Below the pieces are notes generated by a model, which made no database searches, had not been told where the DNA came from, and worked only from the letters and a program-made list of their open reading frames with translations. A stretch of 64,000 bases of DNA from an uncultured Candidatus Binatia bacterium (lineage in GTDB: Bacteria > Desulfobacterota > Binatia > Bin18). The DNA lies in NCBI GenBank assembly GCA_958296235.1, contig OY282457.1:992501-1056500 (forward strand). The letters run 5' to 3'. Positions 37,339-51,627 of the stretch are shown here, piece by piece. The translations under genes were made by a program, and so were the position numbers. How positions within the stretch are numbered: the first letter of the stretch is position 1; each line of letters opens with the position of its first letter.

Positions 37339-39768
37339 TTACGCGGTTTCCTGATACAGCGCGGCTTGCAGGTCGTGCACAGCCTTGACGAAACCCGCCT
37401 TGCTGCCAAAGGCTTTGACCAACTGCACCGGCGTGCCGAGCTTGTCGAGCGGCGGGATGCGCAGCACCGAGACATCATCGAGGTTGAGTACGCCCTCGTC
37501 CGCATATTTGGCGAGCAGGGCATTCAGCACGCCGCGGGCCTGGCCGCTGTATCTGGCGAACACGTCCCGCTTTCTGACATTCTCGGCCCGCTCACCCCGG
37601 GTCAGCGGCTTGGCGTCAAAGGCCAGGTGGCAAATGAGGTCAAAGGGGTCAAAGTCTTTGCCCAGGCTCTCGGCGATAACGTCAAGCGCCAGCCCCTCGG
37701 CCTCCAACTCCTCAAGAATGGCCTGTTTGCGCTCCGCGGCCTTCCAGCGCCGGAGGAAATCGTCCAGGCTGGCAAAACGCTTTTTAAGCGCCTTTCTGGT
37801 AAAGTCGCGCAAGGACTCGGTGACCAGCTTGCCATACTGGTCCAGATACTCGATGCGCTCAGCAACAATGCTGGCGCTCACATTGTCCACATATACCTTG
37901 CGCCGTTTCTCTGGCCGCGGCCACGCAAAAGGATCGACCACAATTTCTTCGATTTCTGCCTCTTCTTCGTCCGGTAGCGGATAATCCTCGGGCGGCGCAA
38001 TGGGCTCGCCCTCGCCTGGCTCGTATATCTGGGCCGGCGCGCCGTCGAAATCCGGGTCGGAAAAATGGCCGGTCGCACCCCGGAAATCCATCAGGGTAAA
38101 GTAGAACTTGCGCGTATCGTCGTGCACGCGGGTGCCGCGTCCGACAATCTGCTTGAACTCGGTCATGGAACCGACCTGGCGGTCAAGCACGATGAGCCGA
38201 CAGGTCTGGACATCCACCCCGGTCGAGAGCAGACGCGAGGTAGTAACCAACACGGGATATCTGGATTCCGGGTCAATGAAGTTGTCCAGTTGGGCCTGCC
38301 CCTCGGCATCGCCGCCAGTGATACGCATGACGTAGCGGTGGTGCTCGCCTGCCAGGTCGGCGTTCTCATTGACGAGCGCCTGTCTCATGCGGCCGGCGTG
38401 CTCCTGGTCAACACAGAAGATAATCGCCTTTTGGAAGCGGTCGCCGCTTTCTTTCAAGAACTGCGTGACCTTGCCAGCCACGAGCTTGGTCCGTTCGTCC
38501 AATACCAGGCTGCGGTCAAAGTCCCTGGTGTTATAGATACGGTCTTCGACCTCGTTGCCGTCCCGGTCCAACTGACCTTGTTCCGGGCGATAGCCTTCTA
38601 TGTCGCGGTCGATGTGAACCTTAATGACCTTGTACGGAGCCAGAAAACCGTCGTGGATGCCCTGTTTCAGCGAATAGGAATAGACCGGCTGGCCGAAATA
38701 ATCGATGTTGGAAGCGTAGCGGGTTTCCTTGGGCGTTGCCGTCAGACCGATATGGGTGGCCGCCGAGAAATAGTCCAGGATTTCCCGCCAGGCCGAATCC
38801 TCGGCTGCGCTGCCGCGGTGGCACTCGTCAATCACAATCAGGTCAAAGAAGCCGGGCGAAAACTCGCGAAAGACCTTCTGGCCGTCCTCCGGCCCGGTCA
38901 GAGCCTGATAGAGGCCCAGATAGATTTCGTAAGATGTATTGACCGTCAGCGTTGCGTCAGGATTGCGAACAATCGTTCCTGCGTCTGACGAAAGTTTCGC
39001 CATAACGCCCTCAAACGGTCGGAAATCGTTCACCATCGTCTGGTCAACCAGGATGTTGCGGTCGGCCAGAAACAGTATGCGCCGCTTGCGACCCGCCTTC
39101 CACAGCCGCCAGATAATCTGAAAGGCGGTGTAGGTCTTGCCCGTCCCGGTGGCCATGACCAGCAGGAGACGCTCGCGGCCTGTGGCAATGGCTTCAACCG
39201 CGGCGTTGATGGCGTTGACCTGGTAGTAGCGCGGGGTCTTACCCCTGCCATCGGTGAAATAATCCTGCAAGACAACGGTCTCGGCCTCTTGCGCCATGTC
39301 CTTCCAGACACGATAGCGCTCCCACAGTTCGGACGGCGAGGGAAAGGCGTTCAAACTGAGGCGGGTCTCTTGCGCGGGGCTCAGGCCGGTCCGGTCGTGG
39401 AACACAAAGCCCTGGCCGTTGGAGGAAAAGACAAAAGGAATATGCAGCGTCTCGGCATAGTCCAGGGCTTGCTGCATACCATCGCCAGGCGCGTGGGCGC
39501 TGTCCTTGGCTTCAATCAGGGCAAGGGGGATGCCGGGCTTGTAGTACAGCACGTAGTCGGCCCGTTTGGCCTTGCCCCGGCTGACCAGCTTGCCGCGCAC
39601 GATAATGCGGCCCTTGGTGAAGCTGACCTCGCGGCGAATCTGCGTGGCCTCGTCCCAGCCGGCCCGGTACAGGGCTGGCGTAATGAACTTGGCCCGCGTA
39701 TCGCTCTCGCTCAGCCTGTTCTGTGCCTCGGCAGTCACGCTCCCATCCTTCGGCTTGCTTACGTTCAT
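37339..39768 (-). CDS. hsdR: Type I R-M restriction subunit HsdR, EcoEI-like
   Basis: 809 residues. The N-terminal nuclease domain has the PD-(D/E)xK signature within LALIEAKDSAHAPGDGMQQA (E-A-K). The superfamily 2 translocase follows with Walker A MATGTGKTYTAF, Walker B DECHRG and motif VI IVGRGTRVHDD. The C-terminal EcoEI-type region runs from about residue 640. It is the first gene of the hsd operon and would translocate and cut unmodified DNA. Upstream lies the tandem MITE-like repeat. No frameshift is seen. Confidence 0.95.
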   Translation of the reverse strand: MNVSKPKDGSVTAEAQNRLSESDTRAKFITPALYRAGWDEATQIRREVSFTKGRIIVRGKLVSRGKAKRADYVLYYKPGIPLALIEAKDSAHAPGDGMQQALDYAETLHIPFVFSSNGQGFVFHDRTGLSPAQETRLSLNAFPSPSELWERYRVWKDMAQEAETVVLQDYFTDGRGKTPRYYQVNAINAAVEAIATGRERLLLVMATGTGKTYTAFQIIWRLWKAGRKRRILFLADRNILVDQTMVNDFRPFEGVMAKLSSDAGTIVRNPDATLTVNTSYEIYLGLYQALTGPEDGQKVFREFSPGFFDLIVIDECHRGSAAEDSAWREILDYFSAATHIGLTATPKETRYASNIDYFGQPVYSYSLKQGIHDGFLAPYKVIKVHIDRDIEGYRPEQGQLDRDGNEVEDRIYNTRDFDRSLVLDERTKLVAGKVTQFLKESGDRFQKAIIFCVDQEHAGRMRQALVNENADLAGEHHRYVMRITGGDAEGQAQLDNFIDPESRYPVLVTTSRLLSTGVDVQTCRLIVLDRQVGSMTEFKQIVGRGTRVHDDTRKFYFTLMDFRGATGHFSDPDFDGAPAQIYEPGEGEPIAPPEDYPLPDEEEAEIEEIVVDPFAWPRPEKRRKVYVDNVSASIVAERIEYLDQYGKLVTESLRDFTRKALKKRFASLDDFLRRWKAAERKQAILEELEAEGLALDVIAESLGKDFDPFDLICHLAFDAKPLTRGERAENVRKRDVFARYSGQARGVLNALLAKYADEGVLNLDDVSVLRIPPLDKLGTPVQLVKAFGSKAGFVKAVHDLQAALYQETA

Positions 39769-39829
39769 TCTATCTCACCACCCCGCGCCGGAACAGCGCC
39801 TCCCCCCGTCTTATCCCCTCTCCCCTGGA

Positions 39830-40031
39830 ACGTGTGATGCAAATTACATTCCTCGGCGGCCCCCCGCTCCCCTGCGCCGGGCCTGTCGGCGACCGGGGGC
39901 CAGGAGTGCGGGCTTCCAGCCCGCAAGCGGCCAAGATGGCCGCTCTCCCAGGAAGCCGGAGGGCGAGCGGCCCGAGGCGGGGGCCGCCGGACCGGTTCCG
40001 GGAGGCTTACGCCACAATAGGCATCACACGT
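39830..40031. mobile_element. MITE-like TIR element, copy 1
   Basis: 202 bp bounded by perfect 11-bp inverted repeats ACGTGTGATGC (39830-39840) and GCATCACACGT (40021-40031). It is flanked by the direct repeat CTGGA on both sides; the uninterrupted site TCCCCTGGAGGGAGA occurs once at about 40340. No transposase frame inside. The interior is G+C-rich with several smaller palindromes. Confidence 0.7.
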
Positions 40032-40087
40032 CTGGAGGGAGAGGGCCAGGGTGAGGGGGCTCCCCGTCTTATCCCCTCTCCCCCGGA

Positions 40088-40288
40088 ACGTGTGATGCAG
40101 ATTACATTCCTCGGCGGCCCCCGCTCCCCTGCGCCGGGCCTGTCGGCGACCGGGGGCCAGGAGTGCGGGCTTCCAGCCCGCAAGCGGCCAAGATGGCCGC
40201 TCTCCCAGGAAGCCGGAGGGCGAGCGGCCCGAGGCGGGGGCCGCCGGACCGGTTCCGGGAGGCTTACGCCACAATAGGCATCACACAT
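40088..40288. mobile_element. MITE-like TIR element, copy 2
   Basis: 201 bp, nearly identical to copy 1 and 258 bp downstream of it. Left end ACGTGTGATGC; right end GCATCACACAT (one mismatch to the inverted repeat). The flanks are CCGGA and CTGGA, that is, the target duplication with one change. It probably arose by tandem duplication together with its flank, not by a fresh insertion. Confidence 0.7.
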
Positions 40289-40543
40289 CTGGAGGGAGAG
40301 GGCCAGAGAGAGGGGGTTCTCCGTCTTATCCCCTCTCCCCTGGAGGGAGAGGGTCAGGGTGAGGGGGTTCCCTGATCCCCACGCAATCCGCCACATAGCA
40401 CAGGCAGGTGCGGACAGGCTGCCCGCACTCACAGAGGAGGAACGCCCCCTGACTTCCAACCCCTCGCCCTTCTCATTCTGTTTCCCCTGTCCCCGTTTCG
40501 TGTTATGAAGCCGGTACAGAATGACTGGAATAAGGAGGGTCGT

Positions 40544-41512
<969 letters not shown>

Positions 41513-48104: not shown

Positions 48105-48695
48105 TTACTGAGCGGGAGCTTGCGCCGCCTGCCCCGGAGCAGAATCCGCGGGATGCAGCCGGCAGGTCTGCCCAATCTCCAGACCGAGTACATGAATCAA
48201 CCGACCGTAGCCGACGAACGTCACAATCCGCCAGCCCAGTTCCAGGATTTCCGGCTCGGTAAAATGCTCGCGTAATGCGTCAAACAGCGCAGGTGAAGCC
48301 AGGCGGTGATCTCCGGCCAGAACATCCGCAAAGCGGATGGCCGCTTTCTCTCGCGGCGTAAAGAGTTCACTGGTTTGGTACTGGGGCAGCGCTGCAATCA
48401 GTTCTTCCGTCACTCCTTGTTGCCTTGCCAAGGCAAACCGGGCGTGCATTCATAAATTGCAATCGTTGCGCTCGGCCACCTTGAGGCGCGCCAGCTCGGT
48501 CAGCTTCACATCAACATTGCCCCGTTCGCCCGACACCAACGGGAAATAGAAATTGATAAACGACTTGAACACCTCAGGCGCGTGGGCAAACACCTGCACG
48601 AACTCCGACCCGCCGAGTTCCTGGTCGTACTCGCGCATAATTGCCTGGAGTTCAGTGTCAACCTGATCAAAGGGAACCTTGCTCACCCGATCCAT
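48105..48695 (-). CDS. AhpD/carboxymuconolactone decarboxylase-family selenoprotein (TGA = Sec82)
   Basis: One continuous frame of 196 residues if the TGA at 48450-48452 is read as selenocysteine. The N-terminal part (MDRVSKVPF to ERNDCNL) and the C-terminal part (MHARFALARQQ to LEIGQTCRLH) are the two halves of one AhpD-like fold. The TGA falls exactly at the second position of the CxxC redox motif, giving C-N-L-U. A GGAGGAG site precedes the ATG at 48695. A SECIS-like hairpin follows the TGA (see separate entry). Members of the fold are peroxidases or decarboxylases; Cys-to-Sec versions of AhpD-like proteins are known from metagenomic surveys. The alternative is a nonsense mutation or a sequencing error. 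Confidence 0.75.
48419..48438 (-). promoter_or_regulatory. Bacterial SECIS-like hairpin
   Basis: Transcript GUUUGCCUUGGCAAGGCAAC begins 12 nt after the UGA. G pairs with the final C; the next U is bulged, then seven pairs (UUGCCUU with AAGGCAA) close a GGC loop. E. coli fdhF SECIS has the same layout: a bulged U in the upper stem and GG in the apical loop about 20 nt after UGA. Confidence 0.65.
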
Positions 48696-48848
48696 AGGAC
48701 TCCTCCCGCTTTCCAGTCTGTTTCCTCTCTTCTGCGATTTTTCAGAAAAAAGCAAGCGCTGGTTCGTCACGCTGAGGCGTCGCATTGACAGGCCGTTGTG
48801 TTTTCTGAACCATAAGAGCCCAGCTTTTCTGAACCATAAGAGCCCAGC

Positions 48849-49523
48849 ATGCCCGTCTACCAACTGACTGCGGAACTCGTCTTTCCCAACCCTGAATGGG
48901 CCAACCCGGAAGGACTGCTGGCGGTGGGCGGGGACCTGGGTCTCAAGCGTTTATTGCTGGCCTATCAACTCGGCATTTTTCCGTGGTATAGCGACGATTC
49001 CCCAATTCTCTGGTGGAGTCCGCCGCACCGCTGTGTTCTCGACCCGGACGGGTTTCATATCTCCCGCAGCCTGCGCCGGCTGCTCCGGCAGGAGCGCTTT
49101 GCGGTCACATTTGACCGGGCTTTTGAAGAGGTGGTCTACGCCTGCGCGGAAACCCGCCTGCGGAACGGAGAAGGCACCTGGATTACGCCCGATATGCTGA
49201 CCGCTTACTGCGCCCTGCATGAAGCCGGCTTTGCCCACTCGGCTGAAGCCTGGGACGACGGCGAGCTTGTCGGGGGGATTTACGGGGTGAGTTTGGGCCG
49301 CGCATTTTTCGGCGAGTCGATGTTCAAACGCGTGGCCAATGCCTCAAAAGTCGCCTTCTGTCGCTTAACCCAGCAGCTCCACCAATGGCGGTTTCAATTG
49401 ATCGACTGTCAGATCGTCAATCCGCATTTGCAACGGCTCGGAGCGTATGAAATTCCACGCAGCGTTTTTCTGCAGCGCCTCGCCGAGGCCCAGCAATTCC
49501 CGACCCGGCGCGGGAAATGGTGA
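48849..49523 (+). CDS. aat: Leucyl/phenylalanyl-tRNA-protein transferase
   Basis: 224 residues of normal length. FPNPEWANPEGLLAVGGDLG, ILWWSPPHRCVLDPD, GGIYGVSLGRAFFGESMFKR and NASKVAF are the family signatures. It adds Leu or Phe to proteins with N-terminal Arg/Lys, marking them for ClpAP via ClpS. No clp gene is nearby. Divergent from the selenoprotein gene, with about 150 bp between the two starts. Confidence 0.95.
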   Translation: MPVYQLTAELVFPNPEWANPEGLLAVGGDLGLKRLLLAYQLGIFPWYSDDSPILWWSPPHRCVLDPDGFHISRSLRRLLRQERFAVTFDRAFEEVVYACAETRLRNGEGTWITPDMLTAYCALHEAGFAHSAEAWDDGELVGGIYGVSLGRAFFGESMFKRVANASKVAFCRLTQQLHQWRFQLIDCQIVNPHLQRLGAYEIPRSVFLQRLAEAQQFPTRRGKW

Positions 49524-50353: not shown

Positions 50354-50823
50354 TAAGCCTAACCGGCAATTCTCAACCCGACGCGGGAAATGGTGAAACA
50401 TGAGAGCAAATGACGATGCGGTGTAGCCCACCCGTCATTCCTGCGAAAGCAGGAATCCGGGCCCCCTGCCCCTGCCGGCCGCTGGATACCGGATCACGTC
50501 CGGCATGACGGAGGCCCCCGGCACGGCGAGAGCTGCGCCAGTATGGCTGACGACGGGCGTTCTGAACGAAAAATCCCCTCCCTGGACGTGTGATGCAGAT
50601 TACATGGCTCGGCGGCCCCCAGACGGTTCGGCCCTCACTCCACCCCCGCTCCCAGCGGGAGCGGGCCTCTTGTTTTTCCCTCTCCCCTGGAGGGAGAGGG
50701 TGGCCCTGAGCCTGTCGAAGGGCCGGGTGAGGGGGCGGATGGACCATCTGGGGGGCCTGCGACACAATGCGCATCACACGTCCCTGGAGAGATGGCCCAA
50801 AGGGTCGGTGTGGGTTTGCCGCC
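50354..50823. repeat. Intergenic repeat field
   Basis: No gene. From left: an 8-bp hairpin ATTCCTGC-gaaa-GCAGGAAT (about 50436-50455) of the common dispersed type; a segment with CCGGATCACGTCCGGCATGA; the TIR element copy 3; inside it, CCCTCTCCCCTGGAGGGAGA and CCTGAGCCTGTCGAAGGGCC, both of which look like dispersed repeats. The area lies between convergent vapC and dapB. Confidence 0.65.
50586..50781. mobile_element. MITE-like TIR element, copy 3 (different interior)
   Basis: 196 bp bounded by ACGTGTGATGC (50586-50596) and GCATCACACGT (50771-50781), perfect 11-bp inverted repeats. It is flanked on both sides by CCCTGG, a probable target duplication. The ends continue to match copies 1 and 2 for about 20 bp (NNATTACAT-type and CACAAT-type), but the centre differs and contains other dispersed repeats. 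Confidence 0.65.
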
Positions 50824-51627
50824 TTACAACCCCAATACATCTTTCATCGAATACAGCCCGTTGGGCTTATCCGCCAACCACAAGGCGGCCCGGACCGCGC
50901 CACGGGCCAGGCATTCCCGGTTCAAGGCGCGATGAGTCAGTTCCAGGCGTTCGCCAAAACCGGCAAAGTGAACCGTATGCTCGCCTACGGTGTCGCCGCC
51001 GCGTAAGGTCATCATGCCGATTTCTTCGTCTGTCCGCTGACCCGTAATACCCTGACGGCCATACTTCGCGCTGTGGTCGAAATCCTTACCCTGCGCCTCG
51101 GCAATAATCCGGCCCAGAGCGAGCGCGGTTCCGCTGGGCGCGTCGATTTTGAAGCGATGGTGCATTTCCACCACCTCGGGATCAAAGTCTTTACCCACAA
51201 TCCTGGCCACGTCCTCCACGACCTTCATTAAGACATTCACCCCAACACTCATATTCGGGGCAATAAGAACCCGGCTCTGGGGTGCGATACGTTCCGCCTC
51301 GGCCCGCTGCTCAGCCGACAGACCAGTCGTCCCAATGGCAATGCCGGCTCCGCTGGCGACTGCCGTCCGCAGATGGTCCATTGCCGCATCGGCCAGGGTA
51401 AAGTCCAGGGCAACAGTGTCCGGGCCAGCCACCGCGGCGTAATCGCTCGTGACCGGCACGCCGAGTGATCCGATGCCGGCGGTTTCGCCAGCATCCGAGC
51501 CAAGGGCGGGATGGCCGGCCGCTTCGATTGCGCCAGCGAGCTGAGCGTCAGGATGTTCGTGAATGAGACGCACCAGCATTTTTCCCATGCGCCCGGCTGC
51601 GCCGCAGATAACAATATTCGTTCCCAT
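50824..51627 (-). CDS. dapB: 4-hydroxy-tetrahydrodipicolinate reductase
   Basis: 267 residues. The N-terminal NAD(P) motif is IVICGAAGRMGKMLV, the catalytic segment EMHHRFKIDAPSGTALALG (His pair and Lys). The enzyme reduces the DapA product in lysine/meso-DAP synthesis. It is the last gene of the arg-dap operon; an 85-bp gap with a hairpin separates it from dapA. Confidence 0.96.
   Translation of the reverse strand: MGTNIVICGAAGRMGKMLVRLIHEHPDAQLAGAIEAAGHPALGSDAGETAGIGSLGVPVTSDYAAVAGPDTVALDFTLADAAMDHLRTAVASGAGIAIGTTGLSAEQRAEAERIAPQSRVLIAPNMSVGVNVLMKVVEDVARIVGKDFDPEVVEMHHRFKIDAPSGTALALGRIIAEAQGKDFDHSAKYGRQGITGQRTDEEIGMMTLRGGDTVGEHTVHFAGFGERLELTHRALNRECLARGAVRAALWLADKPNGLYSMKDVLGL

Follow-up and report, generated by a model that had tools for sequence, protein, structure and literature searches.

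A candidate CxxU selenoprotein gene of the CMD/AhpD-like type in a Binatia genome, with a predicted, covariation-backed SECIS hairpin shared with paralogues

The gene described here almost certainly encodes a selenoprotein: comparative analysis points to a small thiol redox enzyme of the CMD/AhpD fold in which an in-frame TGA would be read as selenocysteine (Sec), in place of the second Cys of a CxxC motif, by means of SelB and a hairpin immediately downstream. It lies in a window of 64,000 nucleotides from an uncultured Candidatus Binatia bacterium. The selenocysteine interpretation, first put forward in a sequence-only reading, is supported by the reading frame, the conservation of the TGA, the Cys counterparts in homologues, a covarying hairpin and a complete set of Sec machinery. 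With TGA translated as U, the minus-strand frame from 48695 to 48105 has the TGA at codon 82 as its sole interruption, and the joined translation of 196 residues confirms that two adjacent frames are in fact one. The mechanical list of open reading frames divides the gene into 48105..48449 and 48450..48863, just as had been foreseen of gene callers, and the joined gene corrects that annotation. Ahead of the ATG, a purine-rich GGAGGA is kept in six relatives.

Table 1 Coordinates of the predicted features and sequences of the inner stem-loops
Feature	Location	Strand	Remarks
Candidate CMD/AhpD-like selenoprotein gene	48105..48695	minus	196 codons + TAA; ATG 48695..48693
In-frame TGA, predicted selenocysteine codon 82	48450..48452	minus	8 orthologue loci also have TGA; distant relatives have TGC
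CxxU redox motif C-N-L-U, codons 79-82	48450..48461	minus	
Shine-Dalgarno region	48696..48711	minus	GGGAGGAG / GCGGGAGGAGTCCT before ATG, read from sequence
Predicted SECIS hairpin	48411..48446	minus	predicted fold + covariation
Covarying core stem of hairpin	48420-48436	minus	loop GGC at 48429-48427
Further TGA-bearing CMD gene	G000:C1:3572260-3572829		listed as CALU
Further TGA-bearing CMD gene	G000:C1:2645316-2645888		listed as CQLU
Further TGA-bearing CMD gene	G000:C1:1363619-1364131		listed as CLFU
Further TGA-bearing CMD gene	G000:C1:3190177-3190332		listed as CHYU
Inner stem-loop	window gene		GCCUU-GGC-AAGGC
Inner stem-loop	L042		GCUUU-GGC-AAAGC
Inner stem-loop	L043		GCCUC-GGC-GAGGC
Inner stem-loop	L044		GCAUC-GGU-GAUGC
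Inner stem-loop	L039		GCUUC-GGG-GAAGC
Inner stem-loop	L061		GCACA-GGC-UGUGC
Inner stem-loop	L062		CCAUC-GGU-GAUGG
Inner stem-loop	L084		GUCUC-GGC-GAGAC

The AhpD-like character of the joined product is borne out by a match to the Pfam CMD family PF02627, which covers residues 40-124 (E 2.4e-11, 43.9 bits against a gathering cut-off of 23) and runs across the TGA. The AlphaFold model is all-helical with a mean pLDDT of 80, Foldseek assigns it to the CMD/AhpD fold with a probability of 1.00, and structure and profile searches together match PA0269, the debrominase Bmp8 and AhpD-core proteins. Four positions show no variation in 17/17 sequences: E67, C79, position 82 and R86. In AhpD of M. tuberculosis, a Glu precedes the first Cys by 12 residues and a His follows the second by 4, and we take the spacing of E67, C79 and U82 to be that of Glu118, Cys130 and Cys133 in that enzyme. 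Glu67 is thus found at the spacing expected of AhpD sensu stricto, but position 86 is Arg throughout. With the relay His replaced by Arg86, the protein is AhpD-like rather than an AhpD, and its chemistry is uncertain.

A scan of GTDB genomes yielded eight orthologue loci at 66-94% identity, of which seven align over the whole or nearly the whole protein (79-94%); the eighth, L024, has a stop upstream and was used from codon 58 on only (66%). Their genomes are mostly labelled Candidatus Binatota or Binatia, with single ones labelled Desulfurellaceae, Deltaproteobacteria and Gammaproteobacteria. The equivalent of codon 82 is TGA in 8/8 of these loci and also in the paralogues, which places its position beyond chance, and while the preceding Leu codon differs among orthologues (TTA, CTG, CTC) the TGA is constant. 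All nine of the more distant relatives from the same scan (30-43% identity) carry TGC at this position, as does a homologue on a Novosphingobium plasmid. The proposed alignment with CMD/AhpD homologues therefore returns Cys at position 82, and the TGA does occupy the second Cys position of CxxC (C79-N-L-U82). The sequence-only reading had also named what would speak against it, namely missing selB or selC, reads with TGC or TGT at the codon, or relatives with unrelated residues there. What was found instead is that the sel genes are present, that the TGA recurs, and that no unrelated residue occupies the position among the eight orthologue loci and nine distant relatives.

These comparisons bear directly on whether the gene might be a pseudogene whose TGA arose by recent nonsense mutation, or whether a TGC or TGT was misread. 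Gene callers would indeed see two fragments, but eight loci from other assemblies, as well as paralogues, have TGA at the same codon, and its recurrence in independently assembled genomes shows that it is no read error. Purifying selection, moreover, acts on both sides of the TGA: against the five closest orthologues, dN/dS is 0.04-0.09 before it and 0.08-0.11 after it, so that the downstream part is selected as protein. We regard a pseudogene or sequencing error as extremely improbable. L017-L022 are collinear with the DNA around the gene to the limits of their flanks, and this collinearity includes the neighbouring genes, aat (Leu/Phe-tRNA transferase) and one of the APH type. Elsewhere in the window, 39700-40660 and 50373-51050 share peptide-like repeats in several frames, e.g. 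RPPASWESGHLGRLRAG; these stretches resemble a family of intergenic repeats that gives rise to spurious open reading frames.

The sequence-only reading had described a hairpin behind the TGA with a bulged U and an apical GG. Both the hairpin and the GG, which lies in the apical loop ~20 nt 3' of the UGA, have held up, whereas the bulged U (~48435) is not conserved in the paralogues, being missing in L042 and replaced by A in L043. Taken singly, the window hairpin folds with a z of -0.70 (38/200 shuffles are equally stable), and synonymous recodings of the gene fold as stably as the native sequence; single-sequence folding and synonymous recoding are strong for L039, L043, L064, L084, L085 and L089. 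Covariation was assessed on 12 representative Sec genes, all of equal register; L024, L040 and L089/L090 have a shifted hairpin. In this alignment 96.4% of cells are paired, double compensatory changes occur at 7/7 stem pairs, and the covariation score is 0.788; shuffling lowers it to 0.25, and sliding the partners to no more than 0.20. The GG at the start of the loop (48429-48428) is kept in 12/12 genes. In L024 the hairpin has 6 bp and a GGUC loop, and sits three bases closer to the TGA. The predicted SECIS is therefore carried by compensatory changes between paralogues, and not by the bulged U or by how the window sequence folds in isolation. An Rfam scan of the window gave no matches, which is no argument against a bacterial SECIS, since such elements are short and variable. 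The paralogues thus provide a covariation-backed model, a 7-bp stem with a GGN loop ~20 nt after the UGA, that may be used for finding similar genes.

The same covariation would go unaccounted for if the UGA were a true stop followed by a restart, giving two separate polypeptides. The window gene and the orthologues closest to it do have an ATG directly behind the TGA, but L023, L039, L044, L061, L062 and L084 have none there. Termination would also cut the CMD domain inside its active-site motif, through which the Cys homologues run uninterrupted, and we would give stop and restart a vanishingly small chance.

Decoding of the UGA as Sec further calls for selA, selB, selC and selD, and the suggested search recovered all four in the host genome (4.62 Mb, one contig, 98% complete). 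The matches to selA, selB and selD (595, 386 and 310 bits, respectively) all exceed their curated cut-offs. Both Rfam (68.6 bits) and ARAGORN identify a tRNA-Sec with a UCA anticodon, whose fold combines a long variable arm with a long D stem and an acceptor stem of 8 bp. A tRNA-Sec was found in 7/8 of the orthologue-bearing genomes.

A second tRNA-UCA gene, L001:2496-2576 (G000:C1:2957297-2957377, minus), is part of a duplicated segment and stands at a distance of 1 kb from selC. It corresponds to selC less 15 nt, with the variable arm gone, A73 for G73 and a few other changes. A tRNA-Cys is expected to have U73. The proximity of the second gene to selC raises the question of whether the UGA could be decoded as Cys or another residue, the more so as selC*-type tRNA-Cys with a UCA anticodon is known from some delta-proteobacteria (PMC7609411). 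Decoding by this tRNA nevertheless seems very unlikely: the gene is a selC without its variable arm that carries A73, it was not found in seven related genomes that have both the TGA and tRNA-Sec, and the covariation of the SECIS would be left unexplained.

Returning to Sec as the preferred reading, we propose the following mechanism. A ribosome arriving at UGA82 would encounter SelB, carrying Sec-tRNA-Sec and bound to the hairpin just downstream, so that Sec would be put in where termination would otherwise occur. In the product, a small all-helical enzyme of the CMD/AhpD fold, Cys79 and Sec82 could form a selenenylsulfide redox pair beside the conserved Glu67. We infer Sec insertion and Cys-Sec redox chemistry from these features, and the substrate may be a peroxide or another organic oxidant.

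The window gene is one of a group. The host genome contains 13 CMD matches, five of which have an in-frame TGA, all within a CxxU motif (CNLU in the window gene, and CALU, CQLU, CLFU and CHYU). The covarying hairpin is common to the first three of the four further genes in Table 1. TGA-bearing CMD matches number 5-6 in each of six related Binatia-like genomes and 2-3 in two more distant ones. In a tree, the window gene falls within 23 rows, every one of them Sec (support 95/98); the deep order of the tree is weak and compatible with one or with several origins of Sec. These observations place CxxU AhpD-like selenoproteins in Binatia with several paralogues per genome, whereas no TGA is present in the host genome's best match to formate dehydrogenase alpha. 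It is conceivable, and we hold this at somewhat less than even confidence, that Binatia harbour an undescribed lineage-specific expansion of Sec-dependent CMD enzymes, numbering 5-6 per genome and overlooked by present annotation. Such enzymes would have a dedicated role, such as reductive or peroxide chemistry acting on organic substrates. Other families of the phylum, too, contain distant TGA-bearing CMD genes, with CRHU in L039 (G199:C209:3668-4138) and CGVU in L040 (G243:C2:25880-26338). In L062 (G402:C71:623643-624611), a CxxU CMD gene adjoins a CMD copy from which both CxxU and CxxC are absent.

Among proteins of known structure, PA0269 (2ijc, 2o4d, 7xw1), Bmp8 (6ohi, 6ohj), 2prr and 3c1l share the CMD/AhpD fold with the window protein at 17-29% identity, and all are known as Cys proteins rather than Sec proteins. 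Over most of its length, the window gene is best matched in NCBIfam by NF053654 (YciW-related (seleno)protein) and TIGR01926 (peroxidase-related enzyme). It is a member of neither, scoring 69.5 bits against a cut-off of 310 and 47.3 bits against 81.8, respectively; paralogues and relatives score 50-83 bits for NF053654, also below 310, and no NCBIfam cut-off was reached by the window gene or the paralogues tested. As the scores fall so far below both cut-offs, the gene probably represents a separate but related subfamily within the already known CxxU AhpD-like selenoproteins. That such selenoproteins are established, as the sequence-only reading had stated, is correct: descriptions of CxxU selenoproteins of the AhpD-like and CMD types date from 2005 (PMC1088965) and 2008 (PMC2398784), and a 2026 review names several such families and enters a CxxU AhpD-like selenoprotein under TIGR01926 (PMC13188914). 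None of the papers searched mentions Binatota together with selenoproteins. The AhpD-like 1 (COG2128), AhpD-like 2 (pfam02627) and CMD-domain selenoproteins from the GOS and Sargasso Sea data are marine metagenome sequences, likened here to the window gene through their published descriptions (PMC1088965, PMC2398784). Like the window gene, they combine a CMD/AhpD domain with CxxU, and they share with it a hairpin directly after the UGA with a G in a small apical loop, as well as widespread Cys homologues.
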